Positions 5,207-23,547 of a stretch of 64,000 bases of DNA are shown here, in pieces. The notes under the pieces were generated by a model. That model searched no databases, was not told the DNA's origin, and saw only the letters and a list, made by a program, of their open reading frames with translations. Both the position numbers and the translations under genes were made by a program. This stretch comes from Psychrobacter immobilis (GTDB taxonomy: Bacteria > Pseudomonadota > Gammaproteobacteria > Pseudomonadales > Moraxellaceae), in contig NZ_CAJGZJ010000005.1 in assembly GCF_904846225.1 (NCBI RefSeq), positions 124,001-188,000 on the forward strand, given 5' to 3'. Each line of letters opens with the position of its first letter. Within the stretch, counting starts at the first letter, position 1.

Positions 5207-5383
5207 TACATAACTTACAAAACAAAACGTCTTATTTCTTGAAAACTAATATCAGTAACACTGTGAAAAGAATTCATCATTATCAGCTTATAACCTGTTT
5301 TATTTTATGATATCGACTCTCTGAAACATAGATTGTATCTCTGATTTTTTTAAATCTTACAAGTCTACAAGGGAGTGAATATC

Positions 5384-8300: not shown

Positions 8301-11300
8301 TATCTACTTTAGGTTTTGGCCTAAAAGCTGCCGATGGTCATACAGTACAAAAACCACTTGGACAAGCAGTTGAAGTGGTCGGCTCTAACAATAATATCGA
8401 CACACGAGTAAAAAACGGCAAAATTGAAGTTGAACTCAGCGACAATCTCGACCTTGGCAATAACGGTAGCGTCAGCACAGGCAACTTTGTAAATGGTACT
8501 AACGTCAATCGCTTGGGCATTGTCACAGGTGGTCTACTCACAGGCGGCGTTACCACCGTCAGTGGATCGGGTGTCACCGCAGCAGGTCTCAATCCGTTTA
8601 ACCCTACCAGCGCAACGCTAACCAGTGATGGCCTAACCATTCTAAATGGACCAAGCATAACTAAATCCGGCGGTATCAATGCTGGTAATAAAAAGATCAC
8701 AAACGTCAAAGCGGGTACAACCACTCTTGACGCGGTGAACTTTGGTCAACTAGCAGTCGTATCAAACGTGGCAGATAGCGCCATGCAGACTGTCATCACT
8801 CAAATCGATGGCACCGAAGTTAAGACCCTTAATAAGGCAGATAATACGGCCAATTTCCTCAAAGGTAACAATATCGTTCTCACTGCTGAGGACGGCGGCA
8901 TCAAAGTCGCAACCGCAGAGGACGTGATGTTCATCAGTGTCACTACAGGCGATACCTTTTTGAACAATGACGGCGTCAGCTTCCTTGGAGGCAGTAGTGT
9001 CAGACTGAGTCAAAGTGGTCTGAACAATGGTGGCAATCGAATCACTGAGGTGGGGAATGCGACTGAATTAGATGACGCCGTTAACCTCAGTCAGCTAAAC
9101 GGTGTCACAGAAACAGCCAATAAAGGCTGGGATATCAGTGCCCAAGGTAACAGTGCCACCGCAAGCAATGTAGGACCTGGTGAATCGGTTGATTTCAATA
9201 GTAAAAACAGTAACATCATCGTCTCTAAAGACACCACCAGCAATGACGTCTCATTTAAACTCAACGACAATCTCGACCTCGGCCATAACGGTAGTGTCAA
9301 AATGGGTTCAGGTTCTCCTTTCGGTCTTGGTAACATCTCTACGCTTGATCGTTCTGGTTTCACAACAGGTAATGTACTACTTAATACCACCGTTAATGGC
9401 TTAGGTGTTAGAACAGGTAATGGCGTGATCAACACGACCGTTAGCAGTTTGGGTGTGGCTGTATCAAACCCATTCTCTACTACCACTCTATCTAGTACCG
9501 GCCTTAACATTATCGGTGGTCCAAGCGTGACGACTGCGGGTATCAATGCGGGTAATAAAAAGATTATTAACGTTGATGATGGTGTATTAGCAAAAGATGC
9601 CGTCAATGTTAGCCAGCTTACTAGTGCTTCTGCCACTGCTAAAACAGAGGTTGCCGCAGGTACTAACATTGCTGGTGTTGTGAAGTCTACGGGTGGTAAC
9701 GGTCAAGATATATATACTATTAATGCTAATGGTTCTAAGACCTCAGTAGGTTCTCCTGCATTAGAAGTAAGCTCTAACACCGATACCAATAACTTGACCG
9801 ACTACACCGTTGACCTAAGTGAAACTAGCAAAGCAAGTTTGATTAAAGCAGATAGTGCCATGCAGAGTGTCATCACTCAAATCGATGGCACCGAAGTTAA
9901 GACCCTTAATAAAACGAATAATACAGCCAATTTCCTCACAGGCGACAACATCGTTCTCACCGCTGAGGAGGGTGGCATTAAAGTCGCAACCGCAGATGAT
10001 GTGTCCTTCACCAGCGTCACCACAGGCGATACCTTGCTCAACAATGATGGTGTCAGCTTCCTTGGTGGTAGCAGTGTCAGATTGAGCCAAAGTGGTCTTA
10101 ATAACGGCGGCAATCGAATCACCAACGTCGCAGATGGTAATGCCGATACGGATGCCGTCAATGTCAGGCAGTTGAATGCAACCAACAGCACAGTCGATTT
10201 GGGACTGGACTTTACAGGAGATGATACCGCCGTCGTTGTCAATCGCAAGTTAGGTCAAACCTTAACGATTCAAGGAGGCGCGACAGATTTAACTGAGAAC
10301 AATATCGGTGTCGTTGCCGATGAAGAGGGCAATCTAAACGTTAGACTGGCTGAAGATATCGTGCTTGGTAGAAATGGTAGTGTAAGAATGGAAAACACAG
10401 TGCTAAACAATGCAGGCATTACTATTACCGATGGCCCTAATCAGACTATTACCTTAAGCAACGAGGGACTTGATAATGGGAACAATAGGATCATCAAAGT
10501 TGCTGAAGGGATTGCGCCAAGTGACGCTGTCAACTTTGCACAGCTCACAACGACCAATAATGAAATTGCCAAAGGTATCAAAATTGGTGATGGCAACAGT
10601 GACAATGATCAGCAATTTGTGTTAGGCGATACGATCAATATCACTGGTGACAGTAATCTTACCACGGTTGCTTCTACCACTGGTGTCCAAGTGAAGCTCA
10701 ACAATCAGTTGAATTTGGGAGATGATGGTAGTATGCAAATAGGCAATAGCATCATGAACAACACGGGTTTTACCTTTGTTGATAATGGCGTAGATAGAAC
10801 GGTCAGACTAAGCAGCACTGGTCTAGACAATGGTGGCAATCCTATCCGCAATGTTGGTAGAGGCGAGCTAAACTCCGATGCCGTCAATGTTGGGCAATTA
10901 AAAGACGTGGCTATTGCATTGGATCAAGGTTGGGGAATTACGGCTCAAGGTGATATTGCTACCATGGTAAAACAAGGTAGTACTGTTGATCTCAGCAGTA
11001 GAGACGGCAATATCAAAGTATCTAGAAAATCAGTGAATGATGCAGCTACACGTGGCGGCAATCCATCACTGCAAGCTGCAGCAATACCTACCAATGCCAA
11101 TGATATTAACTTTGATTTGAATCCTGATATTACTTTGGACAGTGTGACCACTGGTGATACGACCATTAATGATAATGGCCTGACGATTGCGGGTGGCCCA
11201 AGCATCACTAAAAATGGCATTAATGCGGCTAATAACAAGATAACCAATGTCCAAAATGGTGAAGTTACTGCAAACAGTCAAGAGGCTATCAACGGCAGTC

Positions 11301-12169
11301 AGCTTTATGCACAAGGCAGTGGTGTCAGTAATATTATCGGTGGTGCTACCGTCTATAATCCAGTAGATGGGACTTTTACCAACAGTAACATCGGTGGAAC
11401 CGGTCAGAGCAATATTGATGGCGCGATTGCTTCTATTAGACAAGGTACGGTTGCAATTAATGCAAATGTGCAAACCAATACCACCAAAATCGCAACGAAC
11501 ACCACCAATATTGCAACCAATGTAACCAATATCAAAGCCAATAAGGATCGGCTAGATTCAGGACTTAATTTTGGTGCAGATAGTGGTGCTAACATCAACA
11601 AGTCAATTGGGGATAATAGCGTTCTCAGCTTTACAGGTGGTAACAACATAACAACCAGCGCAGAGGGCAGTAGTATCAAGTTTGATCTGAACGGTAACAT
11701 CAATGTCGATAGTGTTACGACTGGCAAAACTACCATCAATAATAATGGTGTTACGATTGCCGATGGTCCTAGTATGACGGTAAGTGGTATTAATGCTGCT
11801 AGCAACAAGATTACGAATGTTGCTGATGGCGTGGCACCTCGAGATGCCGTGAACTTTGGCCAATTAGATGCAGTTAGTAGAAGGCTTGGTGACAACATGA
11901 ATCAGTTAGGATATAAGATTAATGAAGTCGAAGACGATGCAAATGCTGGTATCTCAGCTGCCATGGCAATGTCTTCACTACCGCAAGCTTATATCGCTGG
12001 TAAATCCTTAATCGGTGGCGGTATAGGAACGTATAATGGAGAGAGCGCAGTGGCTATCGGTTTCTCTAAATTATCCAATGACGGTCGTTGGGTTATGAAG
12101 CTAAATGGTACTGCAGATACCCAAGGTAATGCGGGCGCTTCGATTGGTGCAGGCTTCCACTTTGATTAA
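5384..12169 (+). CDS. Trimeric autotransporter adhesin (YadA/Hia type, type Vc secretion)
   Basis: I chose ATG 5384 (AAGGGAG 8 bases upstream) over an in-frame GTG at 5375, giving 2261 residues. Residues 1-27 (MNRIYKVIWNEALNCF...) are an extended signal peptide region. A Ser/Asn linker and a hydrophobic core follow, with likely cleavage after QANA at residue 69. Two YadA-like head segments rich in AxAxG repeats (SIAIGA, AIAIGSG) occupy about residues 200-386 and 595-776 and are duplicates of each other. The rest is a stalk of repeated neck modules (DAVNxxQL) and beta-rich modules (GLNNGGNRI, VTTGDT). The last ~90 residues form the YadA anchor: a coiled coil (LNQLGYKINEVEDDANAG) and four beta strands ending in aromatic Phe-His-Phe-Asp. 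The trimer would be displayed on the outer membrane for adhesion, biofilm or autoagglutination. Monocistronic, with its own terminator. Confidence 0.95.
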   Translation: MNRIYKVIWNEALNCFTAVGEYAKGRGKSSKSSVNSNNTTSNLSSINTFGLSAIGLGLLAAGFGMQANATGIYFTGDNPTPKVYINPYETLKVQGGETVAGDDHTKNINVTANSRDNSLTIKLDKTVDLGADGSLKTGDTLVDSSGIKITANNVVNDVKLTSHGLNNGNNKIINVDDGAITATSKEAVNGSQLNSLTNTVAANKTKYYSVNSTASGNANNDGATGPNAMAMGGNATAAGEQAIAIGSGESGQHTTASGQQSIAIGANVVSKGHSSIALGGDDLNYASKANIGGNSASTVLNSGTVNTVFKGYAGKDMVEANQFDVNTESGGAASIAIGVKSRSRGDLSTAVGVHANSTGTASSAFGMAASATQKGALAMGAGAQSSTQDGVALGSKSVANVVGGATGFVPMGALLVDKNAIIATNSVALGAVSVGTGAQGGNRQIVNVAAGTNSSDAVNVAQLTGLQNGINSTLNQGIDFGGDSGNKVNRKLGEELSIKGGETDGTKLASGNNIGVVADGADTLAIKLAKNLTGLTSVTTGDTVMNMGGISFLGGSTVSLSSTGLDNGGKQITNMASGGTTATNAANIGDISSAVAANKTQYYSVNSTGGSNDDNLGATGQNAMAMGRNASATGGQAIAIGSGASGQHTTASGQQSIAIGANVVSKGASSIAIGGDDLDAASKANIDGTSASAINGGDVNTTFKAYTGRDLVETPPYMVNTESGGAASIAMGAKALSKGALSTAIGIQSSSAGVASSAFGMGSSASLEGSVALGAGSTTATNATSESTVTVGGTTYTIAGPATRAGDQVSVGSAGAERQIKHVAGGAINSSSTDAVNGSQLHATNTAVNKNTTTIGSGLNFEGDTGDTVNRQLGQTLAIKGGATNLSDNNIGVVADGTNTLNVKLAKDLTGLDSVSTGNSLLNTNGLTIANGPKFTTAGINANNQQIQGVMSGGTTETNAANIGDLNTAITGVSTLGFGLKAADGHTVQKPLGQAVEVVGSNNNIDTRVKNGKIEVELSDNLDLGNNGSVSTGNFVNGTNVNRLGIVTGGLLTGGVTTVSGSGVTAAGLNPFNPTSATLTSDGLTILNGPSITKSGGINAGNKKITNVKAGTTTLDAVNFGQLAVVSNVADSAMQTVITQIDGTEVKTLNKADNTANFLKGNNIVLTAEDGGIKVATAEDVMFISVTTGDTFLNNDGVSFLGGSSVRLSQSGLNNGGNRITEVGNATELDDAVNLSQLNGVTETANKGWDISAQGNSATASNVGPGESVDFNSKNSNIIVSKDTTSNDVSFKLNDNLDLGHNGSVKMGSGSPFGLGNISTLDRSGFTTGNVLLNTTVNGLGVRTGNGVINTTVSSLGVAVSNPFSTTTLSSTGLNIIGGPSVTTAGINAGNKKIINVDDGVLAKDAVNVSQLTSASATAKTEVAAGTNIAGVVKSTGGNGQDIYTINANGSKTSVGSPALEVSSNTDTNNLTDYTVDLSETSKASLIKADSAMQSVITQIDGTEVKTLNKTNNTANFLTGDNIVLTAEEGGIKVATADDVSFTSVTTGDTLLNNDGVSFLGGSSVRLSQSGLNNGGNRITNVADGNADTDAVNVRQLNATNSTVDLGLDFTGDDTAVVVNRKLGQTLTIQGGATDLTENNIGVVADEEGNLNVRLAEDIVLGRNGSVRMENTVLNNAGITITDGPNQTITLSNEGLDNGNNRIIKVAEGIAPSDAVNFAQLTTTNNEIAKGIKIGDGNSDNDQQFVLGDTINITGDSNLTTVASTTGVQVKLNNQLNLGDDGSMQIGNSIMNNTGFTFVDNGVDRTVRLSSTGLDNGGNPIRNVGRGELNSDAVNVGQLKDVAIALDQGWGITAQGDIATMVKQGSTVDLSSRDGNIKVSRKSVNDAATRGGNPSLQAAAIPTNANDINFDLNPDITLDSVTTGDTTINDNGLTIAGGPSITKNGINAANNKITNVQNGEVTANSQEAINGSQLYAQGSGVSNIIGGATVYNPVDGTFTNSNIGGTGQSNIDGAIASIRQGTVAINANVQTNTTKIATNTTNIATNVTNIKANKDRLDSGLNFGADSGANINKSIGDNSVLSFTGGNNITTSAEGSSIKFDLNGNINVDSVTTGKTTINNNGVTIADGPSMTVSGINAASNKITNVADGVAPRDAVNFGQLDAVSRRLGDNMNQLGYKINEVEDDANAGISAAMAMSSLPQAYIAGKSLIGGGIGTYNGESAVAIGFSKLSNDGRWVMKLNGTADTQGNAGASIGAGFHFD
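5981..6540 (+). repeat. Adhesin head duplication, copy 1
   Basis: This segment encodes VAANKTKYYSVNS through the AxAxG head repeats to GALAMGAGA. It is closely matched by copy 2 at 7166-7710, including the shared stretches SGQHTTASGQQSIAIGANVV and NTESGGAASIA. End points are approximate. Confidence 0.75.
7166..7710 (+). repeat. Adhesin head duplication, copy 2
   Basis: Second copy of the head module, from VAANKTQYYSVNS to GSVALGAGS. It differs from copy 1 in small indels around GGDVNTTF and TPPYM, showing that the copies have drifted since duplication. Confidence 0.75.
8771..9045 (+). repeat. Adhesin stalk repeat, copy 1 (275 bp)
   Basis: A 275-base segment that recurs at the same length at 9848-10122. 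Both copies encode ADSAMQ(T/S)VITQIDGTEVK, then NNIVLTAE or DNIVLTAE, and end in GLNNGGNRIT. Differences are mostly single-base. Confidence 0.8.
9848..10122 (+). repeat. Adhesin stalk repeat, copy 2 (275 bp)
   Basis: Second copy of the stalk module at 8771-9045, in the same frame and exactly the same length. The pair is a substrate for recombination that would change stalk length by 1077 bases (359 codons) without a frameshift. Confidence 0.8.
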
Positions 12170-12592: not shown

Positions 12593-13630
12593 ATGATACC
12601 AAATCTCTCTACTCGTCCTGTCACTGCTTGGGTAACCATTTTAGTCGTTGCATTGCATGGCGCTATTGCGTGGGCGATGGTATCTATCGAGAGTCCAACA
12701 CCCGTTTTGCCCGAAAATAAACCTAAGGTCATTCATTTAGAGTTGGTCTCATTAGCATCAACGCCTGAAAAAACATCACCTGCGACAAAAAATATCCCTA
12801 CTGAGCCGCAAACCAAACCTTTGGTCGAAAATCCTTCACCGTCCAGCACAAAATCAACTGATTCAGCAGAAGAAGCCGAAACCACTGAGGTATTACCGGT
12901 ATCAAAAGTGGTTGAACGTCTCAAAACCAAAACAGAACAGACACGAAAAACCCCGAAAAAAAGTAAGAAGCCGATTAAAAAAGACTCGAAGTTGAAGGAT
13001 AAGCCTGAAAGCACTTCATCGGAGCAAACTCTGACAATCGTAGAATCAAGAAGAATAGCTAATAAATCTGACAAAGAAGAAGAGACAGAAGATGATCTGT
13101 CCGCCATGATTCGTGCTGTGACAGCGCAGTACAACCGCGAGCAAGCGATACAGCAAAATGCCGTAAAAAATCAAGCCAATAAAAAGCTAATGGAGCAAGA
13201 ACAGTGGCGGATACAAGCCGCTAATGAAGCGATTAGCAAGATGCTGGCATTAGCCGCAGAGCAAGCCGAAAACCAAAACAATGATAAAATCGATTCAGAG
13301 GACAACGTTGATAAAAAGGACGAAGATACCGCTTTCTTGGCAAATGACGGTAGCTGGATGGCTGAGCATGAACCCATCACTAGTTTCCCAGCGCTTTTCT
13401 GGCGCAGTATTAACACGCGTTTGGGTGACGTATTCATTGTCGTATTAGAGCTGCATGTCAACAAAGAAGGATATGTGACCGAGGTACAATTACTTGAATC
13501 GTCAACCAGTCCCATTATCGATGCAATAGCAACCACTCAAGTAAGGGGCGGACAACTCAATCCGTTTATACAAAACGGCGTCGCAGTAGATGCCATTGTA
13601 CCGATGTCGCTGGTTTATGAAAGACCTTAA
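12593..13630 (+). CDS. TonB-like energy transducer
   Basis: A 345-residue protein with the TonB layout. A short cytoplasmic N-terminus is followed by one membrane anchor (about residues 9-29, AWVTILVVALHGAIAWAMV). A long periplasmic spacer rich in Pro, Lys, Glu and Ser (30-200) contains a Lys-rich run (KKSKKPIKKDSKLKDK). A predicted helical segment follows at about 160-225. The C-terminal TonB domain (about 265-345) contains VVLELHVNKEGYVTEVQLL and ends in IVPMSLVYERP. TonB couples the inner-membrane proton gradient to outer-membrane receptors for siderophores. No exbB/exbD is adjacent, so it must use partners encoded elsewhere. ATG 12593 lacks a clear ribosome site. Which receptor it serves is unknown; the siderophore locus 38 kb downstream is one candidate. 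Confidence 0.82.
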   Translation: MIPNLSTRPVTAWVTILVVALHGAIAWAMVSIESPTPVLPENKPKVIHLELVSLASTPEKTSPATKNIPTEPQTKPLVENPSPSSTKSTDSAEEAETTEVLPVSKVVERLKTKTEQTRKTPKKSKKPIKKDSKLKDKPESTSSEQTLTIVESRRIANKSDKEEETEDDLSAMIRAVTAQYNREQAIQQNAVKNQANKKLMEQEQWRIQAANEAISKMLALAAEQAENQNNDKIDSEDNVDKKDEDTAFLANDGSWMAEHEPITSFPALFWRSINTRLGDVFIVVLELHVNKEGYVTEVQLLESSTSPIIDAIATTQVRGGQLNPFIQNGVAVDAIVPMSLVYERP

Positions 13631-13767: not shown

Positions 13768-14913
13768 TCAGAAAGCTCGTTCAAAAAACCACCATAGTGC
13801 CACTAAAACGCTAATCAGCGATCCTAAATAAAATATGATGTATTTATAAAATTTCGTATGGCGTAATAATAATGCAATCGGGAATACCACAGCGATAAAT
13901 ACCAATTGTCCCAATTCAATGCCGACATTGAAACTCAATAATGCTAATACGCGCGCGCTGGTGTCGAGCGGTAAATCGACCAGCACATTTGCAAAGCCAA
14001 AACCGTGAATGAGTCCAAAAAAGAAGGCCAGATAAATCGCTCGTACTCGTAGCATGGGCATTAAGTTATTGAGCGCGGCAAAGGCGATAGACAGCGCAAT
14101 GACAGATTCAATAAAGCGGGCAGGTATACTGACGATTTGTAGTGCGGCCAAGCTTAGCGTAATTGAATGGGCGAGCGTGAACGATGTCGCAATCCAAAAA
14201 ACTTCGAGCAGTGCCGCTTTCGGTTTGGAGACGGCAACCAGTTGTTTTTGTTTGCGCATGTATACCGCAGGAATGAGCAATACAAACAAGAACAGTAAAT
14301 GATCCCAACCAATCAACAAATGGTGTATACCGCTTTTGAGAAAGTTTGTCGCTGTAGCTAGCAAGCCAGAGGGCGCTTCTGAACCCAACGTATTTTTACC
14401 AACAGCCAGTACTTGTAGCGGTGTGCCTTCATCGGCTTGCGTTAGAATTAAGCGGTGGTTGGCATCAATACCTGCCAATATCTGATAATCAAGACTGTCG
14501 ATTGGTTGCTCGCAGCTTAACTTAAAAGCGGTATGTAAATAATTAAAGCCGCCGCGTGTGTTGATTGCCAGCGGCTCAAAATTCGCTATTTGGCAAGTTT
14601 GTGCCGCATTGTCTAATTTTACCTTAGAGGTTACCAGTTGCTCTATCAGAGGCGTTTGTGATTTTACTTCCGCCCAGCTGACCTGCTGATCTCGGTTTGG
14701 GTCTATATCTATCAGCAATGCCAAGTCACGAAGGGATAACTCGTATTCAGCGTTGTAGCTAATATCTGCTGCACCTTCGGAGTTATCTTTAGTTAGGTTT
14801 AAGTAAGCAGTACTGGCTTCATGCGCTTGTACTAAGGTGCAAGTCAGCAGTAATAATACTAGCGTCAAGTAACGATAAGTATGACGGGAAATAACTCTAA
14901 TAAGCGCGCTCAT
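13768..14913 (-). CDS. HupE/UreJ-family membrane protein with periplasmic EF-hand-like N-terminal domain
   Basis: A 381-residue protein. An N-terminal signal (about 14-30) ends in LVQA; cleavage there would expose HEAS, a mature N-terminal histidine. The periplasmic domain (31-185) contains a textbook EF-hand loop at residues 71-82 (DPNRDQQVSWAE: Asp1, Asn3, Asp5, Glu12). The C-terminal half (about 190-380) is the HupE/UreJ_2 membrane domain with about seven segments and conserved His/Asp motifs (HHLLIGWDHLLFLF, LAHSITLSLA, GLIHGFGFA). Family members are linked to nickel/cobalt or other metal handling, but substrate and direction are mostly unproven. It is the last gene of a four-gene minus-strand operon and overlaps the TPR gene by four bases (ATGA). 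Specific function unknown. Confidence 0.82.
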   Translation of the reverse strand: MSALIRVISRHTYRYLTLVLLLLTCTLVQAHEASTAYLNLTKDNSEGAADISYNAEYELSLRDLALLIDIDPNRDQQVSWAEVKSQTPLIEQLVTSKVKLDNAAQTCQIANFEPLAINTRGGFNYLHTAFKLSCEQPIDSLDYQILAGIDANHRLILTQADEGTPLQVLAVGKNTLGSEAPSGLLATATNFLKSGIHHLLIGWDHLLFLFVLLIPAVYMRKQKQLVAVSKPKAALLEVFWIATSFTLAHSITLSLAALQIVSIPARFIESVIALSIAFAALNNLMPMLRVRAIYLAFFFGLIHGFGFANVLVDLPLDTSARVLALLSFNVGIELGQLVFIAVVFPIALLLRHTKFYKYIIFYLGSLISVLVALWWFFERAF

Positions 14914-16139
14914 AAAGCCTTATCCTTGTTTTGAACTTGCGTACCTGAAGGCCCAGTTGTGCTACTGGCGGTCTGCGCATCTTGGCAGTTTAGACAGTCA
15001 CTGATTTTGCCCAAGCGTAGATCACGCTCCAATGCTGGATACTCAAACTTAGTGTCTGTTATAAATTGACGTACAATTTCGATATCTTTTTGGCTATTGG
15101 CTTTGAGAGCTGCTGTCGCATAGAGCACTATGTCAGCGGTTTCGCGCTGTTGCTGCCAATTTTCTTGAGCCAATTTCAGGGCTGAGTCAATCTGATTAGC
15201 AAGTAACGCATAAGTGGCCTGTTCGCGCATATGGGCGTTTTCTTTGCGTATCTGCCACACCTCAATACGCTCCTTCATCAAGGCCAAGTTTTGATTGGCT
15301 TTGGGATCATCCAGTTTCATTTGAGCGGTAATAAGACGGAGCAGTAGTGCGTCTTTATCCGTGTGATCTTGGAGCAGGTCACGGACTTTTTCATATTGAC
15401 CGATACTCAATAACCAATCCGCACGCGCCATGAGTGCAGGCACCGTCTGATCGTCCATTAGAGTAAAGACTTGATCGGCAAGGGTAGCGTCTTGGCTACG
15501 CAGTGCTGCATCTGCTTGAATCAGATAAATCCAGCGTGCTGTCGAGGTATCTAGCCCAGGAGCAATGGCTGCCAGCCCGCTGAGTGTTTGTTTTACGGGT
15601 GCAAGTTTGCCAGTCATGCTCTGTATTTGAGCTTCGCAAGCCAAGACATACACGCGCAATGCAGGATCTTCGAGCTTTTTACAATAGCTCATGGCGTCTG
15701 AAAATTGTCCTTGAGTGACTAACAAGGAGGAAAGGGTCAATAGCGCATCTGGATTGGCTGCATCTTGGCTTAGTATTTTTTTTAATAACTCTTTTGCTTC
15801 AGAGAATTTGTGATAGGATTGAAGCGCTCGTGCTTGTAGCATCAGGGTTTCTATACTCTGATCAGTTGTTTGATCCAACTGCGCGCGCGCTTGTCCTAAC
15901 GCACGGGGGTCACCTTGCAAATAAGCACGCTCTAATAATTGACTGGTTTCTTCTAGAGTGATTTTGCCTGTGTCGGACACAAAATCAGCTGAGGTTAGAT
16001 AGCGCGGTGGTGGAGAATCGTTGGGCAGGGTTTCAAGAATTTGTTGATCGTCTGTCGGAATGAAAGAGGCCGCATGAACAAGCTGGCTGCTGATGAGTAA
16101 CAGTAACAAGAATTCGATGGGGAACTTAATCCAGTGCAT
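14910..16139 (-). CDS. Periplasmic tetratricopeptide-repeat protein
   Basis: I start at ATG 16139 (GTGAG 7 bases upstream); a GTG at 16151 would add four residues. About 409 residues begin with a signal peptide (FPIEFLLLLLISSQLVHA). The rest is almost wholly helical with TPR-like repeats: paired helices with the AxxxLxxA pattern, for example ALGQARAQLD, AKELLKKILSQDAANPDALLTLSSLL and ADWLLSIGQYEKVRDLLQ. The C-terminal tail contains DCLNCQ, a CxxC pair that could bind metal or form a disulfide. TPR proteins scaffold protein-protein contacts. Here it probably links the secreted DUF4331 protein to the HupE-like membrane protein encoded on either side; that is inference from operon order only. 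Confidence 0.78.
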   Translation of the reverse strand: MHWIKFPIEFLLLLLISSQLVHAASFIPTDDQQILETLPNDSPPPRYLTSADFVSDTGKITLEETSQLLERAYLQGDPRALGQARAQLDQTTDQSIETLMLQARALQSYHKFSEAKELLKKILSQDAANPDALLTLSSLLVTQGQFSDAMSYCKKLEDPALRVYVLACEAQIQSMTGKLAPVKQTLSGLAAIAPGLDTSTARWIYLIQADAALRSQDATLADQVFTLMDDQTVPALMARADWLLSIGQYEKVRDLLQDHTDKDALLLRLITAQMKLDDPKANQNLALMKERIEVWQIRKENAHMREQATYALLANQIDSALKLAQENWQQQRETADIVLYATAALKANSQKDIEIVRQFITDTKFEYPALERDLRLGKISDCLNCQDAQTASSTTGPSGTQVQNKDKAL

Positions 16140-16214
16140 AAGATATCTCACTCATAATATAAAGAAGCACCCAATCAGTGAACTGACTAGGTGCTGGATT
16201 TATCTCACGTCATA

Positions 16215-16490
16215 CTAGAGTGAGGCATTGGCATTTGCTACTACAACTGGCTCTGCCAGATTTGCTTCAGGAAGTATAATCCGATCGATATCTTGAGGCT
16301 CATCGGTGTTGACATTGTTGCTAGCGTCAATCACATCAGAGGTTCTGCTAGCGGCCAACTTGGCTTTTGCTTGGTCAAATGCAACATCATCATTGACTGG
16401 ATTTGATGAGGCGGAATTATCATTGTCATTGAAACAACCAGAAAGTGCAGCTGATCCAGTGATCAATACGGCTAACATTATATAGCGCAT
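16215..16490 (-). CDS. Small lipoprotein of unknown function
   Basis: A 91-residue protein with a lipoprotein signal (MRYIMLAVLITGSAALSGC; lipobox LSGC, lipidated Cys19) and an Asn/Asp/Ser-rich mature part without recognisable domains. ATG 16490 has a strong AAGGAG. It sits between the DUF4331 and TPR genes in the same direction, with 27- and 75-base gaps, so it belongs to that operon. I recognise no family. The tail (LAEPVVVANANASL) looks unstructured. Confidence 0.75.
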   Translation of the reverse strand: MRYIMLAVLITGSAALSGCFNDNDNSASSNPVNDDVAFDQAKAKLAASRTSDVIDASNNVNTDEPQDIDRIILPEANLAEPVVVANANASL

Positions 16491-16517
16491 AGTATTTCTC
16501 CTTGGGTGAAATTCAGC

Positions 16518-18017
16518 TTATCGGCTACCTGGTGTAGGCGTCGTTAGATAAGGAAATACTGAGTCAAACTCAGTCGCAGGTTTAAGGGCACCATCTGTGA
16601 ACAGTGCTTTTCCAGCTTTAGCATCCGCAGGTACACAAGTCACGGCAGCTGGTAGACCTGCATGACACAAGGCACCCATAGAGACTCTCAATGCAATGTC
16701 AGTCACGTCATCACCAGGGCGTCTACCATTTGGAAATCCTGCAACGTCTTTGGCAGTTGCATTGGGACGACCGTCATTCTGACCAGGAATAATACTAATC
16801 ACACCCAGATCATTCTGATTGGCAGCGGCAACCGCAGGCGTAGTCGTGTTGAGTCGTAACATATCTGCCGGCACTTGATTGGTATTGGCAGGTTTATTGA
16901 TCGTCGGAACACCTGTTAAGAATGCGGTCACTAAATCTTGACGTGGGAAATTGGTTGGTGCTGGAGCTTGTGGATACAAGGTCTGAATCAATGCTGGGAG
17001 CGTAGGATAAAAGACATAAGGGGCAAATTTTGCGACATCGTCTTTTGGCTCTGACGCATTGAATTTATCTTTATCCTTTAGACCAATGACGACTTCGTTA
17101 ACCAATGGCATGCCCAGTCTGGAAACCTGAGTCCATGCGCCACCTTTTTTAGCGGTGGTGCTGATGCCAGACGCAGGTGAAGGATTCACCAAAGTTGCCT
17201 GACGGACACTAGCTGTCGTCCAAGCACCAATCACAGGGTCTTTGCTACTTGCATTGACGAGACAAGCTTTTGGCACTTCCATCGCAATTGATGTGACGTT
17301 TTTATCTGCCAATATATTGGTACCACCATCACGTGCACCCAATGGGTTTAGGTTGACCAAGTCAAACACTCTACCCAAATCGATAGCAAAGCCTTCAGCA
17401 CGCTGACCGACGAAAACCTTACCTTGACCACAGTTGCCTAAATTTAGCGTTTTGATAAAGCTTCGCGCGTATGTCGGATAGTCTGCAAAGGATTTAGTAC
17501 CGATATAATCGAATGGCTTGTTAAATTTACCTAAGGAGGACCGCGAGCCACTACGTCGATCGCCTTTGACCATCGTTACATCATAGCTTTCATTCGTTTG
17601 TACATTAGCCGAATTTGATGCATCACCAGCATTAGACAAAGGTATGGCGACATTTGGCGTCGATGGATTGCCATCTGAATCAATTTCAATACTGTTTAGA
17701 TTTTGAGTAAAATCAAATTGGAAAGTAATGTCTTCAACAGCGTCACCGTTATTGTCGATGTGAATCTCATACAGCGCATCTGGGTCTAGGGCGAAATAAT
17801 TGGGTCCACCGTAGGCATCTTGCAGCGGCAAATAGTTAGCAATAATCGTGACGTAATCTGCCCGATTATTTTCATAGCTGTTGAACATATAAAAGTCAGA
17901 GGCATCGACTTTTGGGGTTTTGGTGATAGAAGGGGCTTCGCGGTGACTTGACGCTACTGCACTTGCACTCACGCACAAGGTCATGGCTGCGATTAGAGCT
18001 TTGGTGGTATGTTTCAT
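16518..18017 (-). CDS. Secreted DUF4331-family protein
   Basis: A 499-residue protein with a Sec signal peptide (cleavage near ASAVAS, residues 20-24). The mature N-terminus carries the family signature SHREAPSI...KVDASDFYMFNSYE. The body is beta-rich, with DUF4331 features: the LYEIHIDNNGDAVEDITFQF segment at residues about 83-102, GRVFDLVNLNPLG, and NEVVIGLKDKDKFN. Members are exported proteins of unknown biochemical role in many proteobacteria. A pair of cysteines near the end (LCHAGLPAAVTC) could form a disulfide. It is the first gene of the minus-strand operon with the lipoprotein, TPR and HupE/UreJ genes; a good AAGGA precedes the ATG. A 9-base inverted repeat lies upstream at 18135-18171. 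Confidence 0.85.
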   Translation of the reverse strand: MKHTTKALIAAMTLCVSASAVASSHREAPSITKTPKVDASDFYMFNSYENNRADYVTIIANYLPLQDAYGGPNYFALDPDALYEIHIDNNGDAVEDITFQFDFTQNLNSIEIDSDGNPSTPNVAIPLSNAGDASNSANVQTNESYDVTMVKGDRRSGSRSSLGKFNKPFDYIGTKSFADYPTYARSFIKTLNLGNCGQGKVFVGQRAEGFAIDLGRVFDLVNLNPLGARDGGTNILADKNVTSIAMEVPKACLVNASSKDPVIGAWTTASVRQATLVNPSPASGISTTAKKGGAWTQVSRLGMPLVNEVVIGLKDKDKFNASEPKDDVAKFAPYVFYPTLPALIQTLYPQAPAPTNFPRQDLVTAFLTGVPTINKPANTNQVPADMLRLNTTTPAVAAANQNDLGVISIIPGQNDGRPNATAKDVAGFPNGRRPGDDVTDIALRVSMGALCHAGLPAAVTCVPADAKAGKALFTDGALKPATEFDSVFPYLTTPTPGSR

Positions 18018-18402: not shown

Positions 18403-19053
18403 TTAATGTTTTGGCGCGTCAGGTTGCATCATGGGATCAGCCTCTGCAAATGCTTTTAGCGTGCGGCAATGCGTGTCAATCTCCAAGATATTGGGATAAA
18501 GACTAAGATCTACTTTGAAGCGGCGAGCAGAAGAAACCTGCGGAATTAAATAGCAATCTGCAAAAGTAGGGCGGTCACCATAGCAGAATTTTGCGCGATT
18601 TTTATCTGCTGCTAAGCGTTTTTCTAACGCAGCAAAACCCTCGCTCATCCAGCGGTTGCACCATGCCATGACTTTATCTTCGTCTACTGCCAACTCGTTG
18701 CGTAAATACTGTAAGATACGGCGGTTATTGATCGGATGCATATCGCAACCAATCAAAGCACTAAGCGCGCGTACATGCATGCGACCAGTCGCGTCTTTGG
18801 GTAATAAGGGCTGGTCAGGATAGGCTTCCTCTAGCCACTCTAAGATAGCAGGACTTTGGTAACACGATAAATCATCAACTTGTAGGACAGGCACCAATCC
18901 TTGAGGATTGATAGATTGAAAGTCATCTTTTAGCTGCTCATCTTGCGCCAGATTGACTGCGATATAGTCATAATCCAATTCTTTTAAGTTCAATGCGATA
19001 CGAGTGCGATAAGAGGTGCTGCTACGAAAATAGCCATGAAGTTTCATCATCAT
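18403..19053 (-). CDS. maiA: Maleylacetoacetate isomerase (zeta-class glutathione transferase)
   Basis: A 216-residue two-domain GST. The thioredoxin-like N-terminus has the zeta-class active-site motif SSTSYR (compare SSCSWR/SSAAYR) and the glutathione-binding stretch NPQGLVPVLQ...CYQSPAILEWLEE. The all-helical C-terminal domain ends in YPNILEIDTHCRTLKAF. It isomerises maleylacetoacetate to fumarylacetoacetate, the step before fumarylacetoacetase in tyrosine breakdown, using glutathione catalytically in the cytoplasm. Three ATG codons in tandem (19053, 19050, 19047) follow AAAGGA; the second or third has better spacing. It is divergent from an IclR regulator, its likely controller. Maleylpyruvate isomerase is an alternative in isolation, but fahA and hpd nearby favour MaiA. 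Confidence 0.9.
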   Translation of the reverse strand: MMMKLHGYFRSSTSYRTRIALNLKELDYDYIAVNLAQDEQLKDDFQSINPQGLVPVLQVDDLSCYQSPAILEWLEEAYPDQPLLPKDATGRMHVRALSALIGCDMHPINNRRILQYLRNELAVDEDKVMAWCNRWMSEGFAALEKRLAADKNRAKFCYGDRPTFADCYLIPQVSSARRFKVDLSLYPNILEIDTHCRTLKAFAEADPMMQPDAPKH

Positions 19054-19201
19054 TTATTCCTTTTATTGTGGTATGTTGTCAGTGAAATAAGCAGTTATAA
19101 TGGTTAATAACATGCCTATTTAACATAGATAAAGAGAGTATTATTAGTCATATCTTTATTTGACTGATACTTAACAGAGCAAACCATTCATTGAGTAAAC
19201 C

Positions 19202-20065
19202 ATGCCAGCAGCTGATAACTTTGTAGATAACAACCTTGTAAATAATCCTGCCGCAACCAGTAAAAACCAGAGTGGTGTTCAATCACTTGAAATTGGGCTG
19301 TCGATATTGGATGTCCTTATCGATTATAACGAACCGATGATGTTAAAGGATATCGCCCAAGTGATGCAAATGCACCCAGCAAAGTGCCATCGTTATTTGG
19401 TCAGTCTCATTCGTAAAAACTACGCACGTAAACTTGGTGATGGTCGCTATGGACTGGGCGATAGGGTTAATGCGCTAGGACACACCGGATACAATCAAAA
19501 CAATATCTTAGAGCGGCTAACGCATATCGCTAATGAGATTAAAGATACTTTAAACTGCGCGGTACAAATCGCCAAATGGTTCAATGAAGGCCCTATCATC
19601 ATTCAATCGGTTGAGCCTGACAGTGCTATTAGTATCATTACGCGTATTGGTTCACGGATGCCGCTGACGACGTCGGCCACAGGGCAGCTGTTTGCCAGTT
19701 ATCAGCCCGACGCCATGATTGAGCCATTGGTCGTGACGGAATGGCAGACAAAGGATGATGTGGTAGCAGCAGAGAAATGGCAGCACTTCACCCAATTACA
19801 GACCAAAATCCGTACCCAAGGCTATGCGGCAGTCACGGGTGATATGTTGATGGGTATTAACGCCATTACGATTCCTGTTATCTTGCCACAGCCTACAAAC
19901 GCCGTCGCCACTTCCTCTACTATCAATGACAAGCCCTCGGTTGAAAGCTTGCCATTAGAATATGCCATTACGATTATCGGAACCACCGCGCAGTTACCGA
20001 TAAGTGAGCAGCATAAGGTGGTTGAGCAAATATTGGTCATAGCACAGCGCTATCAAATAGTGTAG
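19202..20065 (+). CDS. IclR-family transcriptional regulator
   Basis: A 287-residue regulator. A winged-helix IclR domain (about residues 20-80; QSLEIGLSILDVLIDYNEPM, then KDIAQVMQMHPAKCHRYLVSL as recognition helices) is followed by an effector-binding GAF-like domain (about 95-285) with the typical RIGSRMPLTTSATGQLFASY segment. The N-terminal 20 residues are Asn-rich and probably disordered. It is divergent from maiA across a 148-base gap and convergent with the TRAP binding protein gene. IclR proteins often control aromatic catabolism; regulation of maiA and neighbours is inference. The ligand could be homogentisate or 4-hydroxyphenylpyruvate, but nothing in the sequence identifies it. Confidence 0.88.
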   Translation: MPAADNFVDNNLVNNPAATSKNQSGVQSLEIGLSILDVLIDYNEPMMLKDIAQVMQMHPAKCHRYLVSLIRKNYARKLGDGRYGLGDRVNALGHTGYNQNNILERLTHIANEIKDTLNCAVQIAKWFNEGPIIIQSVEPDSAISIITRIGSRMPLTTSATGQLFASYQPDAMIEPLVVTEWQTKDDVVAAEKWQHFTQLQTKIRTQGYAAVTGDMLMGINAITIPVILPQPTNAVATSSTINDKPSVESLPLEYAITIIGTTAQLPISEQHKVVEQILVIAQRYQIV

Positions 20066-20120
20066 CTATTTAATAGCATAAAAATTAACTGCGCTGTGGC
20101 TTCAATGTGGCTTCAGTCAT

Positions 20121-21191
20121 TTAAACGGCACAAGCAGCGCTGGCTGCTTTAGCTTGTTCATAGACGGTTTCTCCGTCCAAACCAAGTGCTGCCAATTCAT
20201 CAAGATATTTTTGAGTACCTTCTAAAAGTGGGCCTTTCCAGTCAGGATTGTTTAAGGGGTCTGGAATATCAATCATAGTATCGCCTTTGGCACGCGCTGC
20301 AGCCATGGCTGCCTCATTACTTTCATCAAATATCTTGGCGATACGCTCTGACATTAACATCCCTGAATTGTCATCAATGACTTTTTTCAGATCGTCAGGC
20401 AGGCTGTTGTATTTGTCCTTATTCATTGTGACGACAAAGGTAGAATTGTAGAAAGGAATGTTTGTATGATGACTAAGTAGTTCATCGAGACGGAATGCTT
20501 GAATCGGTTGCCAAGTAAACGCTAAACCATCAATAACGCCGCGTTGCAATGAAGTGTAAGTATCACTGGCCGGCATACCAACAGGTGCAGCACCAGCAGC
20601 CTCTATGATGTCAGCCGCTACCACAGAGGGTTGACGTATTCGCATGCCTTTCATGTCTGCGGGCGTGCGAATGGGTTTGTCGACGGTATGTAGCGCCCCT
20701 TGCCCTGACCCCATCAAAGAAAGTAGGTGAGTGTCTTCATATTCGCTGGAAATGGCACCATCTTTATAAAGTTTATACAGTATGCAAGTCTGCTGCTCGG
20801 CTGTATTGGAGATACCTGGTAACTCGAGCACCTGAGTCAAAGGAAAGCGTCCAGCAGTGTAGCCCTGTACCTGCATACCGATATCCACAATACCTTTGGC
20901 GGTAGCGTCATAAGTGGCGCCTGGTTTGCTGAGAGTGGCAGAAGGATAGATCTCAACCTTTAAGCGTCCCTTCGAGTCGGCTTCAATCTTTCGAGCCCAA
21001 GGTTCAAAGCCTTCAGTATTTATATTGTCAGTGGCAGTCATAAAATGAGAAAACCTCAAGGTAGTGACTTTTTCTGTATTGCCTGTGCTGGTATCAGCCC
21101 CAGCGTTTACGGTTTGGTCACTATTATTACAACCCGCCACAGCAACCAAAGCCGTTAACAGCAGTCCTAAGCGCATTTTTGTTTTCATCAT
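20121..21191 (-). CDS. TRAP transporter solute-binding lipoprotein (DctP family)
   Basis: A 356-residue protein with a lipoprotein signal (lipobox VAGC, Cys21) and a TRAP-type solute-binding fold: LRFSHFMTATDNINTEGFEPWARKI at the start, the central KGMRIRQPSVVAADIIEAAGAAPVGMP that carries the conserved Arg expected to bind a carboxylate, and GVIDGLAFTWQPI. It should deliver a carboxylate substrate to a DctQM membrane pair. No dctQ or dctM is in the window, so it is an orphan here or uses one encoded elsewhere. It lies 79 bases downstream of the VOC-protein gene on the same strand (AAAGGA before the ATG), so the two are probably co-transcribed. An aromatic acid ligand would fit the context, but that is inference. 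Confidence 0.85.
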   Translation of the reverse strand: MMKTKMRLGLLLTALVAVAGCNNSDQTVNAGADTSTGNTEKVTTLRFSHFMTATDNINTEGFEPWARKIEADSKGRLKVEIYPSATLSKPGATYDATAKGIVDIGMQVQGYTAGRFPLTQVLELPGISNTAEQQTCILYKLYKDGAISSEYEDTHLLSLMGSGQGALHTVDKPIRTPADMKGMRIRQPSVVAADIIEAAGAAPVGMPASDTYTSLQRGVIDGLAFTWQPIQAFRLDELLSHHTNIPFYNSTFVVTMNKDKYNSLPDDLKKVIDDNSGMLMSERIAKIFDESNEAAMAAARAKGDTMIDIPDPLNNPDWKGPLLEGTQKYLDELAALGLDGETVYEQAKAASAACAV

Positions 21192-21270
21192 AGAATCCTT
21201 TCTTGATGGTTAAATATCGTTAGCTATCGAAGTTGAGCTTGGCGAAAACTTGCCATGAACTATCATTTAG

Positions 21271-21846
21271 TTACTCGCCAACAGGAGCCACTTCTTTGGC
21301 TTGTGTCAATTCTTCAGCGTGCAAAAACTGGGTATGTGCTGGGGCGCGTTTGGTACGTGACCATTCTTCTAGCATATCTTTTTTGATGGCGTCTGTAATC
21401 ATCGAAACTTTGTCATGTGAAGTCGCATCATCATAAGTCAGCTCTAAGCGATGACCGTTCGGATCAAAGAAGTAAATAGAATGGAAAATCCCATGATTGG
21501 TGACCCCAATCACATCGATACCTGCGTTTTCTAAATGTTCTTTAGCCAACAACAATTCGTCGCGGTCTTTTACCTTGAGTGCTAAATGCTGTACCCAGCT
21601 TGGCGTATTGGGGTCAAAGCCCATTTCAGGTTGATTGGGTACTTCAAAAAATGCCAACACATTGCCATTACCCGCATCCAAAAAAACGTGCATATAAGGG
21701 TCGAAAGCTTTGGTTGAAGGAACATGATCTTCGGCAAACGCCAAAATAAAATCCATGTTGAGGTGTTTTTGATACCATTCAACGGTTTCTTTGGCGTCTT
21801 TGCAGCGATAAGCCACATGATGAATTTTTTCAATGTTAAAGCTCAT
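21271..21846 (-). CDS. VOC-superfamily metalloprotein (glyoxalase/extradiol-dioxygenase fold)
   Basis: A 191-residue protein with two beta-alpha-beta-beta-beta modules of the vicinal-oxygen-chelate fold. Candidate metal ligands are His9 or His10 (KIHHVAYRC), Glu68 (LAFFEVP), His87 (WVQHLALKV) and Glu135 (PNGHRLELT). Four such ligands resemble glyoxalase I; two His plus one Glu also fits an extradiol dioxygenase. The C-terminal 45 residues are helical and charged. It is encoded upstream of the TRAP protein and near fahA and maiA, in a locus that lacks a recognisable homogentisate dioxygenase. Substrate unknown; an aromatic-catabolism role is inferred from context. The ATG is preceded by a strong AAAGGAG. 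Confidence 0.8.
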   Translation of the reverse strand: MSFNIEKIHHVAYRCKDAKETVEWYQKHLNMDFILAFAEDHVPSTKAFDPYMHVFLDAGNGNVLAFFEVPNQPEMGFDPNTPSWVQHLALKVKDRDELLLAKEHLENAGIDVIGVTNHGIFHSIYFFDPNGHRLELTYDDATSHDKVSMITDAIKKDMLEEWSRTKRAPAHTQFLHAEELTQAKEVAPVGE

Positions 21847-21871
21847 ATCAAACTCCTTTTGATAAGGCGCT

Positions 21872-21979
21872 TATAGTCAAATCCCTATAAATCCGCTACA
21901 TCGTCACCCACGCTTGATGTACTACTTGTACTATCTGTGCGTGGCTTCCTTGTATCGAAATTATTTGGCTTCGACTATA
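21872..21979 (-). repeat. 108-bp dispersed repeat, minus-orientation copy
   Basis: Read on the minus strand it begins TATAGTCGAAGCC and ends GGGATTTGACTATA. It aligns over its full 108 bases with the element at 26546-26653, sharing blocks ATAATTT, GATACAAGGAAG and TAGTA. It lies in the 5' region of the VOC gene. Confidence 0.75.
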
Positions 21980-21986
21980 GCAAGTT

Positions 21987-22006
21987 GGTAGTAAATATTT
22001 ACTACC
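21987..22006. promoter_or_regulatory. Perfect 20-bp palindrome upstream of the VOC gene
   Basis: GGTAGTAAATATTTACTACC is a perfect dyad with no spacer, 141 bases upstream of the VOC-protein start, next to the 108-bp repeat. A dyad of this length fits an operator for a dimeric regulator. The binding protein is unknown. Confidence 0.55.
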
Positions 22007-22067
22007 AGTAGTAGTTATTTAACTGTGCTACTCAACTGCTTTTACGCCTATTTTGCTATGTTTATAT

Positions 22068-22240
22068 TAGGGCGTGTCCTCAATCTGAACAAAAGCGACT
22101 AAATGGGCTAAAAATAGCTAAATCTTGCCAAACGTCGTCAAATAGCTAGTCAATATCTCGATATTATCTGCACTATTTTCCTTGTTTGGCTGCCATTTAT
22201 CTTATTTTTATCACCATTTTCAGATTGAGGACACGCCCTA
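22068..22240. mobile_element. 173-bp MITE-like element with perfect terminal inverted repeats
   Basis: Both ends carry GGGCGTGTCCTCAATCTGAA as perfect inverted repeats, each flanked outside by TA (included in the coordinates), consistent with a TA target duplication as made by IS630/Tc1-type and some IS5-group transposases. The 129-base interior is AT-rich and non-coding. It lies 17 bases beyond the fahA stop codon, and no transposase is nearby, so it would have been mobilised in trans. Family assignment is inference. Confidence 0.8.
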
Positions 22241-22257
22241 TTGCTATTTGTTGACTG

Positions 22258-23547
22258 TTATTTGTCAAAATCAAAGTTGATAGCGGGCAAGACTTTGCCG
22301 CGTACTTCGCCAAAACCGACACGGATGCCATCTTTTTCGCTATAGCCTTTCATAATGACCGTATCACCATCTTCAATAAAGCTACGTGTCGCGCCACCTG
22401 TTAGCGTGACGGGCTTTGTGGCATTCCAAGCAATCTCTAGCATCGAGCCATAAGAATCAGGCGTTGACCCTGAAATAGTGCCTGAACCCATCATGTCACC
22501 GACTTCTACTTTACAACCAGTGATGGTGTGATGGGTTAGCTGCTGTGCCATTGACCAGTACATATATTTGAAATTGGTCTCACAAACCACGGTGGCGCTT
22601 TCAGCGTTTTTGGGCAGTAGTTCGACCGATAAATTGATATCAAAGCTGTTCTCTGTCTCTTTTTCATTCAAGTAAGCAAGCGGCTTTGGCTCTTGAGTCG
22701 GGCACGACGTTTTAAAAGGGGCGAGCGCATCCATGGTCACGATCCACGGCGAGACTTCAGAGGCAAACGTTTTGGCATTAAATGGCCCTAAAGGCACATA
22801 TTCCCATTTTTGTATGTCACGAGCTGACCAATCATTGAGTAAGACCATGCCAAAGATGTGATCAAAGGCATTATTTACGGCAATCGGTTGACCGATATTA
22901 TTGCCTTTACCGACGACAAAAGCGGTTTCAAGTTCAAAATCGAGACGCTGACAAGCAGAAAAAATAGGACGATCGTCCGCATTTGGTTTTAGCTGACCGG
23001 ATGGGCGCACGACATCCGTGCCGCTCACGATAACGGTGCTGGCACGTCCATTGTAGCCAACTGGCATCTCAGTCCAGTTAGGCAGCAGCGCATTGCTCGG
23101 ATCACGGAACATCGTGCCGACATTGGTGGCGTGTTCTTTAGAAGAATAAAAATCGGTAAAACCCGGCACTTGGACAGGCAGGTGCATGGTGACGTCTGCT
23201 TGCTTAAAAAGGACTTTTTTCTGCAATTCTTGATTGTCGCGCAAAGTATCGCTTTCATTAGACAGCAGCGTTTGAATAATTGTGCGGGCGTGCGTCCAGT
23301 TGTCTCGACCAGAATCAATAAAAGCGTTTAGCGTGGATTGATCAAAGTATGAACCGCCATCCAAGCTTAATAAACCTTCTGCTTCGAGTACGGACAAATC
23401 CAGTACGTGCTCGCCAATTGCTACACCAGCGCGGCGCTTGCCGTCAGTAGCGTCACTAAAGATGCCATAAGGCAGATTGTGGATTGAGAAGTCAGAATCT
23501 TGAGCGATATCGATAAACGAGGTAAGGGTCTTGTCAGTCGTTGACAT
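22258..23547 (-). CDS. fahA: Fumarylacetoacetase
   Basis: A 429-residue enzyme of full fumarylacetoacetase length. An SH3-like N-terminal domain (about 1-120; FSIHNLPYGIFSD) precedes the catalytic mixed beta-roll domain. Metal and catalytic residues by family pattern are Asp132 and His139 (TDFYSSKEHATNVG), Glu205 and Glu207 (DFELETAF) and Asp239 (NDWSARDIQKWE). It cleaves fumarylacetoacetate to fumarate and acetoacetate, the last step of tyrosine breakdown. ATG 23547 has AAGGAG. The upstream region holds an imperfect inverted repeat (23577-23614); a MITE-like element lies just past the stop. There is no homogentisate dioxygenase beside it, although the two are often paired in other bacteria. 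Confidence 0.94.
   Translation of the reverse strand: MSTTDKTLTSFIDIAQDSDFSIHNLPYGIFSDATDGKRRAGVAIGEHVLDLSVLEAEGLLSLDGGSYFDQSTLNAFIDSGRDNWTHARTIIQTLLSNESDTLRDNQELQKKVLFKQADVTMHLPVQVPGFTDFYSSKEHATNVGTMFRDPSNALLPNWTEMPVGYNGRASTVIVSGTDVVRPSGQLKPNADDRPIFSACQRLDFELETAFVVGKGNNIGQPIAVNNAFDHIFGMVLLNDWSARDIQKWEYVPLGPFNAKTFASEVSPWIVTMDALAPFKTSCPTQEPKPLAYLNEKETENSFDINLSVELLPKNAESATVVCETNFKYMYWSMAQQLTHHTITGCKVEVGDMMGSGTISGSTPDSYGSMLEIAWNATKPVTLTGGATRSFIEDGDTVIMKGYSEKDGIRVGFGEVRGKVLPAINFDFDK

Follow-up and report, generated by a model that had tools for sequence, protein, structure and literature searches.

The 64,000-nucleotide stretch analysed here, referred to below as the window, is from Psychrobacter immobilis (contig NZ_CAJGZJ010000005.1, positions 124,001 to 188,000 of the forward strand) and carries on its minus strand an operon for a DUF4331 protein, a small lipoprotein, a tetratricopeptide repeat (TPR) protein and a HupE/UreJ-2 permease, in that order (Table 1). 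The initial annotation had described four closely packed genes on one strand, with a single ATGA overlap and an export signal on every product. All of the open reading frames (ORFs) were re-found and their positions bear this out, with intergenic distances of 27 bp and 63 bp followed by the ATGA overlap, and signal peptides and an LSGC lipobox are recognisable by eye. Pfam searches matched the DUF4331 protein to PF14224 (E 9.7e-143, positions 1-421, full-length and above the cut-off), the TPR protein to TPR_19 (E 1.4e-8) and the permease to PF13795 (E 9e-44). No Pfam family was matched by the lipoprotein, and an NCBIfam search gave no match for the DUF4331 or HupE protein. In relatives the lipoprotein slot is taken by an Ig/cadherin-like or other short lipoprotein, with Big_9 in one case (L046). 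The view that none of the genes has an assigned activity can no longer be held, since the ectodomain class of HupE/UreJ-2 proteins had already been described in 2025 (PMC12537917). Our reading, to which we give a probability of roughly 0.58, is that the operon encodes a capture and uptake system for a transition metal, most likely copper, with nickel and cobalt as the alternatives.

Table 1. Features of the operon and the adjoining gene in the window
Feature	Position	Strand	Remarks
DUF4331 protein (PF14224), first gene	16518..18017	-	499 residues; predicted exported metal-capture protein
Mature N-terminus, Ser-Ser-His codons (H2N-X-X-His, ATCUN-type)	17943..17951	-	predicted signal-peptidase cleavage
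Asp-rich loop DNNGDAVED	17730..17756	-	candidate second (Ca-like) site; putative metal binding
Small lipoprotein	16215..16490	-	91 residues; lipobox LSGC; no Pfam family
Terminator-like hairpin between lipoprotein and TPR genes	16166..16195	-	13 pairs, T-rich tail
Exported TPR protein	14910..16151	-	413 residues; TPR_19; proposed linker/scaffold between DUF4331 and permease
HupE/UreJ-2 permease with Ang-1-like ectodomain	13768..14913	-	381 residues; PF13795
Predicted mature N-terminal His codon of HupE	14821..14823	-	(-3,-1) rule
EF-hand-like loop of HupE ectodomain	14668..14703	-	ORF residues 71-82, mature 41-52
H-X5-D-H motif, first permease helix	14299..14322	-	invariant columns H168, G172, D174, H175
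TonB-like protein, convergent	12593..13630	+	TonB_C; probable fifth member in Psychrobacter

A histidine near the mature N-terminus of the DUF4331 protein had been pointed out in the motif SHREAP; the histidine is present, but cleavage fits best before SSHREAP, and it is therefore placed at residue 3 of the mature protein. By the permissive (-3,-1) rule used for all cleavage sites here, an X-X-His terminus is possible in 118 of 119 DUF4331 proteins longer than 380 residues, the exception being a mis-called start. SHRE occurs in 114 of the 119, all of which would leave X-S-H (X being Ser in 110 and Ala in four, with Ala at residue -1 in 110), and the other five are the mis-called start, one SSHRGAP and three divergent proteins able to leave ADH, SDH and SHH. 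Three further divergent members could leave SHH, ADH and SDH; in all six the rest of the motif is changed and X-X-His is retained, two of the sites requiring Ser at -1. The unreadable N-termini of the DUF4331 proteins of genomes G203 and G332 lie outside this count. As a control, a crude rule was applied to 265 other exported-like ORFs from these loci and placed a histidine at position 3 in nine and at position 1 in 11. In an AlphaFold (AF2) model the protein is beta-rich with a predicted local distance difference test score (pLDDT) of 86.2, and the first 12 residues score below 50, as expected for a free tail. The amino-terminal copper and nickel (ATCUN) motif, H2N-X-X-His, binds Cu(II) and Ni(II) (PMC7701195), and the sequence pattern suggests that DUF4331 uses this motif for metal. 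As part of a conserved X-X-His, the histidine is more telling than the initial annotation supposed. Serum albumin-type ATCUN proteins, as described in PMC7701195, have the same H2N-X-X-His terminus, whereas DUF4331 is a bacterial exported family, beta-rich in its model, in which binding is predicted. The D, N, G, D, E and D positions of the Asp-rich loop are at least 90% conserved in an alignment of 46 rows (45 of the 77 available named rows and the window). Foldseek gave no match to the model at E <=0.001. Two candidate relationships were set aside, the best structural likeness being to antibody domains (Z 5.8), perhaps merely a common arrangement, and the best solved sequence relative being complement C3 (E 0.12), taken as chance. 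Neither DUF4331 nor PF14224 was named in any paper found among open-licence PubMed Central texts.

The permease fits the features first ascribed to it, with an EF-hand loop at residues 71-82 and a cleavage before HEAS that conforms to the (-3,-1) rule. Among 79 HupE hits the start is Ala-His in 66 and Gly-His in three. In an alignment of the window protein with 29 of 52 rows (A3), D41 and E52 of the 12-residue loop are invariant in 30 of 30 rows, and helices flank the loop in the model; the invariance of the histidine in A3 proves nothing, because the pattern by which the rows were picked demands it. An EF-like regular expression matches 66 of 73 DUF4331-linked HupE proteins and two of 27 others (20 from elsewhere and seven from other fetched loci, including L062, beside a divergent DUF4331), and judged by such patterns the loop separates linked from other HupE proteins better than the N-terminal histidine does. 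The model of the window protein (pLDDT 88.7) has an ectodomain whose best match in the PDB is 9gce (Foldseek rank 1, E 2.5e-4; Z 11.1, root-mean-square deviation 3.0 over 127 residues), followed by the zinc-binding ZrgA (Z 9.9) and PA4063 (Z 8.9). The entry 9gce shows the Ang-1 domain of a HupE/UreJ-2 protein with Cu bound; according to the same source, HupE/UreJ-2 ectodomains with an N-terminal histidine bind copper and nickel and are termed anglerases, and RbAng-1a binds Cu (74 nM) and Ni (220 nM) (PMC12537917, Nat Commun 2025). The window protein and RbAng-1a have in common PF13795, a mature N-terminal histidine, the ectodomain fold and a proposed capture of metal that feeds the permease. 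The window class differs in its EF-hand-like loop and in its operon with DUF4331, lipoprotein and TPR genes; the main text of PMC12537917 makes no mention of DUF4331, TPR, a sigma factor or an EF-hand. Sequence kinship was not detected, as the A3 profile has no match to 9gce at E 1, and a relative of RbAng-1a (L172, 2.3e-28 to 9gce) falls outside the DUF4331-linked clade. Because of this distance, and of an EF loop that most others lack, the window HupE is a distinct variant of the Ang-1 anglerase-HupE/UreJ-2 proteins and not a member. In a tree of 100 HupE proteins the 73 linked ones fall within a supported set of 77 (98/95), together with four unlinked ones, one of which (L169) is from a genome (G038) whose DUF4331 and TPR genes lie on a different contig. 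The likeness of PA4063 and ZrgA to the ectodomain model is structural and the metal differs; we know of no DUF4331 partner for either. The permease domain is of the same superfamily as the nickel permease HupE of Rhizobium and has H-X5-D-H, a functional motif of HupE, whereas the window protein has the extra ectodomain and comes from a genome with neither hydrogenase nor urease.

The gene set is conserved well beyond Psychrobacter. DUF4331 occurs in 10 genomes of a 57-genome set (the window's genome and relatives) and in 22 of a 347-genome phylum sample, being full-length in 16. In 12 of these 16, a PF13795 gene follows DUF4331 on its own strand at a distance of up to about 4 kb, for which the chance expectation, at one to four PF13795 genes per genome of about 4 Mb, is estimated at well under 1. 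Named genomes gave at least 588 confirmed DUF4331 stretches (two patterns were used, and a locus may count twice); the named loci are the best 80 of these, biased to close relatives and not dereplicated (L048 and L116 are from one organism, L186 and L194 from one strain). Among the 69 of the 80 with at least 5 kb downstream, a TPR orthologue is present in 56 and TPR with HupE in 50. Conserved co-occurrence, set beforehand as a check on the initial annotation, was found, DUF4331-TPR-permease being kept across Pseudomonadota and in Nitrospira, DUF4331-TPR-NicO in Actinomycetota and DUF4331-TPR in Bacteroidota. The CxxC with which the TPR protein was said to end does exist, but about 25 residues before the C-terminus; it is present in five of 83 TPR ORFs, all from Psychrobacter, and because of this confinement it was rejected as a conserved metal relay. 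At DUF4331 loci without TPR or HupE nearby (e.g. L094, L121, L123 and L136) no alternative partner was found in the three genes scanned, which at L094/L121 were one without a match, one RsgA GTPase and one AMP-binding enzyme. Recurrent neighbour clusters, annotated in part, include a cluster at six loci with one member of the family DUF4198, a nickel binder with an N-terminal histidine (PMC12537917). As proposed for DUF4331, the DUF4198 protein is exported and has an N-terminal metal-binding histidine; as described in that source, it is of a different family and has the histidine at position 1, against 3 in DUF4331. In a genome of the same bacterial class (L063, 4677-7153) DUF4198 and a classical HupE_UreJ (PF04955) come after a divergent DUF4331, and in Leucothrix arctica (L138, 9901-12300) three related tandem genes lie beside DUF4331, the one scanned being DUF4360.

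Plasmids provide a second view of the operon, 16 of 32 DUF4331 records having been read. DUF4331-TPR-NicO is the arrangement at seven of the eight actinobacterial loci, NicO being a family unrelated to HupE (two of the seven were named by Pfam and the rest by similarity to those two). Six of the seven NicO proteins have a predicted mature His start (HPLGN) and, about 40 residues on, an EF-like loop, a pattern that gives their ectodomains the layout of the HupE ectodomain. At two Streptomycetaceae loci (L184 and L189) a sortase gene adjoins DUF4331, in L189 between DUF4331 and TPR, hinting at cell-wall anchoring, and on two Rhodobacterales plasmids (L188 and L197) DUF4331 and a short gene are neighbours of type II secretion genes, a hint that the protein is secreted or lies at the surface. 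TPR and HupE are present in four of six Pseudomonadota plasmid records, in L195 upstream of DUF4331, the other two records being these Rhodobacterales plasmids. In one Adhaeribacter strain, two plasmids have TonB-dependent receptor genes divergent from DUF4331-TPR.

Regulatory and TonB-related genes recur around the operon. Both flanks were available for 49 of the 80 named loci; among these 49, an extracytoplasmic function (ECF) sigma gene is found at 23, RskA at 19 and one cluster of TonB-dependent receptors at 15, as counted with profiles built from the same loci and without a genome-wide baseline. DUF4331, TPR, HupE, ECF, RskA and receptor genes form a single run in Paraperlucidibaca. A promoter-like motif, TG[CA]ATCC-N14-17-CGT[AT], derived from the same data on which it was counted, precedes the DUF4331 gene at 46 of 97 loci, with a spacing of 16 at 41 of them. 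Shuffled sequences gave a mean of 0.16, and eight of 822 other genes have the motif; it is present upstream of DUF4331 in 25 of 46 loci with an ECF gene near and in 21 of 51 without. The ECF sigma and RskA-type anti-sigma genes beside the operon in relatives are reminiscent of the SigK-RskA regulated surface proteins, whereas the regulated genes differ. In the window the convergent neighbour encodes a TonB-like protein (TonB_C, E 2e-7). Of 36 genus genomes tested for both genes, a close TonB orthologue (E <1e-99) is present in four of five with DUF4331, the window's own included, and in none of 31 without it. A 12.5 kb stretch of genome G002 (L066) has a shortened, stop-interrupted HupE adjoining the last 31 residues of TonB, with DUF4331 and TPR not found in it, and is a decayed operon copy. 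Next to the operon at two named Psychrobacter loci is a more divergent TonB (34-39% identity), which at one of the two stands on the operon's other side, and L065 and L082 have none within the stretch examined. In Psychrobacter, TonB probably belongs to the system as its fifth gene. In Acinetobacter the gene that follows the receptor (cluster 8) is a candidate TonB, being TonB-like by eye, but one member has no TonB_C match and six members have no similarity to the window's TonB.

Several of these neighbours bear on the direction of transport. It is unlikely that the system exports, buffers or detoxifies, with DUF4331 and the ectodomain sequestering excess Cu or Ni and the permease pumping it out. 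The nearby ECF sigma genes would suit such a stress response, and in Pseudoalteromonas (L183) drug-type-annotated RND efflux genes lie just past the operon on the opposite strand. Moreover, the permease of the actinobacterial loci, of the NicO family, contains a long His-rich stretch; such a stretch is a hallmark of the efflux pump RcnA, and efflux pumps exist among NicO proteins that have a His-rich loop, a point that tells against uptake. Nevertheless, TonB and TonB-dependent receptors at many loci point inward, and HupE is said, in work by Brito from 2010, to be a nickel transporter required for hydrogenase. Those same receptors could serve TonB-dependent uptake of a metal complex (metallophore, cobalamin-like or iron), with DUF4331 as surface receptor partner and HupE as the final step. 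This is less probable still, even with the receptor cluster at 15 of the 49 loci, a receptor within the operon in Acinetobacter, Undibacterium and Paraperlucidibaca, receptors adjoining DUF4331-TPR on both plasmids of the one Bacteroidota strain, and the linked TonB of Psychrobacter, as 34 of the 49 loci have no such receptor within about 8 kb. In addition, the closest solved relatives of one receptor, PqqU and BtuB, are of low similarity, and streptomycetes, Gram-positives with no outer membrane, retain the DUF4331-TPR-permease set.

The terminator-like hairpin between the lipoprotein and TPR genes has a counterpart in all eight Psychrobacter loci examined (the window and seven others, with seven distinct sequences); compensatory change is seen in three of 13 pairs, and 89 of 91 cells are paired, both misses being in L081. 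This locus is from Psychrobacter glacincola, in which DUF4331 appears as two ORFs (7929-9413), through a break in the gene or through a sequencing error. In a stricter scan 20 of 72 loci have a terminator-like hairpin in the interval from DUF4331 to TPR, L081 not being one of the 20, as a raw count without a chance level. Because a conserved terminator-like hairpin lies inside the operon, expression may be in two tiers, DUF4331 and the lipoprotein being made in larger amounts than TPR and the permease, which would fit a capture protein that feeds a scarce membrane step. An excess of DUF4331 over permease would also fit a Ca-stabilised surface protein with a TPR chaperone and an unrelated role for HupE, as would the sortase genes, the type II secretion genes and the Asp-rich loop, but this least probable of the alternatives leaves the conserved X-X-His and the pairing with two unrelated metal-permease families unexplained.

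For a system of metal capture and uptake, the identity of the metal is a matter of analogy, copper being a first guess before nickel or cobalt because of the published preference of RbAng-1a for copper (PMC12537917). Of the 16 DUF4331 genomes, six have urease and two a near full-length NiFe-hydrogenase (E <1e-100), whereas the figures for the whole sample of 347 are 169 and 38; the absence of association across genomes argues against nickel supply to either enzyme as the purpose. In the scheme that we propose, DUF4331 would be exported, and removal of its signal peptide would expose a flexible H2N-Ser-Ser-His tail of the ATCUN type, a ligand for Cu(II) or Ni(II) on the cell surface or outside it. 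The protein would be held by a lipoprotein or a surface anchor in Gram-negatives, and by sortase in some actinomycetes. The TPR protein would dock DUF4331 and carry it to the permease, where the N-terminal histidine in the Ang-1-like domain would accept the metal. The EF-hand-like loop, probably holding Ca2+, might shape or gate the histidine site, and the membrane domain would move the metal inward. In many relatives a TonB-dependent receptor would aid entry at the outer membrane and ECF sigma/RskA would set expression; Psychrobacter retains a linked TonB. The chain of metal capture and transfer envisaged in the initial annotation is partly supported in this form, with a HupE histidine that matches a Cu/Ni-binding class and the X-X-His of DUF4331, but without the CxxC relay of the TPR protein. 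A wider claim would be that DUF4331 is, family-wide, a secreted ATCUN metallochaperone that captures Cu(II)/Ni(II) at the surface via its own N-terminus and that forms, together with TPR as adaptor and a permease drawn from one or the other of two unrelated families, most often bearing an N-terminal histidine, a hitherto unrecognised acquisition system of Gram-negatives and Gram-positives; this is tentative, and we hold it at somewhat below even odds.

A number of observations weigh against metal uptake by this operon. The function, metal binding and location of DUF4331 are predictions from sequence, and sites other than those chosen can fit the cleavage rule. The N-terminal histidine of HupE, considered as a mark of the operon, is not specific to it, because 11 of 20 HupE/UreJ-2 proteins from elsewhere also have Ala-His near the cleavage site; the EF loop is absent at the level of the regular expression from seven of 73 linked proteins, and the HupE of L062, beside its divergent DUF4331, forms a long branch outside the linked set. 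Homology of the HupE and NicO ectodomains, which their sequences suggest, is weak (hhalign E 0.0022, probability 12.9%), and a clear N-terminal histidine and an EF loop are both missing from the Nonomuraea NicO (L193). The chain from DUF4331 to permease is not obligatory, because among the 16 full-length genomes PF13795 had no match in three (G071, G292 and G306) and lies elsewhere in the genome in G241. In Acinetobacter a TonB-dependent receptor occupies the HupE slot, no permease gene adjoins TPR in the DUF4331-TPR locus of Miltoncostaea, the eighth of the actinobacterial plasmid loci, and neither TPR nor HupE is near DUF4331 on the two Rhodobacterales plasmids. Of the 97 upstream regions, 12 have the promoter-like motif in reverse orientation, possibly as divergent promoters, and it stands upstream of only seven of 48 ECF genes and four of 23 TonB-dependent receptor genes. 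The window's own genome departs from the SigK-RskA likeness, with no RskA match and no promoter-like motif upstream of the operon, and has no close TonB-dependent receptor of the neighbour-cluster type (best E 8e-4). A search of the window and eight of the 80 named loci for metal riboswitches gave none, the only hit being one tRNA. Finally, the distribution of urease and NiFe-hydrogenase, and their absence from the window's genome, argue against nickel for those enzymes.

Other genes flank the system in the window. Adjoining the TonB gene is a 2264-residue repetitive protein (5375-12169), by eye a YadA-type surface adhesin. Immediately upstream of DUF4331, the region 18403-23547 has a GST-family gene (Pfam) and then an IclR regulator, with genes that resemble by eye those for a TRAP binding protein, a dioxygenase and a fumarylacetoacetase; on the Pseudoalteromonas CF6-2 plasmid (L183), hmgA-maiA likewise lies about 4 kb from the DUF4331 operon.

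The DUF4331 half of the system, its links to TPR and TonB, the exchange of permeases and the sigma-factor promoter were not found in the open-licence literature searched, while the HupE half is near the class described in 2025; relative to that description (PMC12537917), the multi-protein arrangement is new. If the proposed capture and uptake of metal is true, the DUF4331 family, with members in 22 of the 347 phylum-sample genomes, would gain a function, and the anglerase permeases would gain upstream partners and a regulator. A genetically encoded surface trap for copper or nickel would then join the known routes of metal acquisition.

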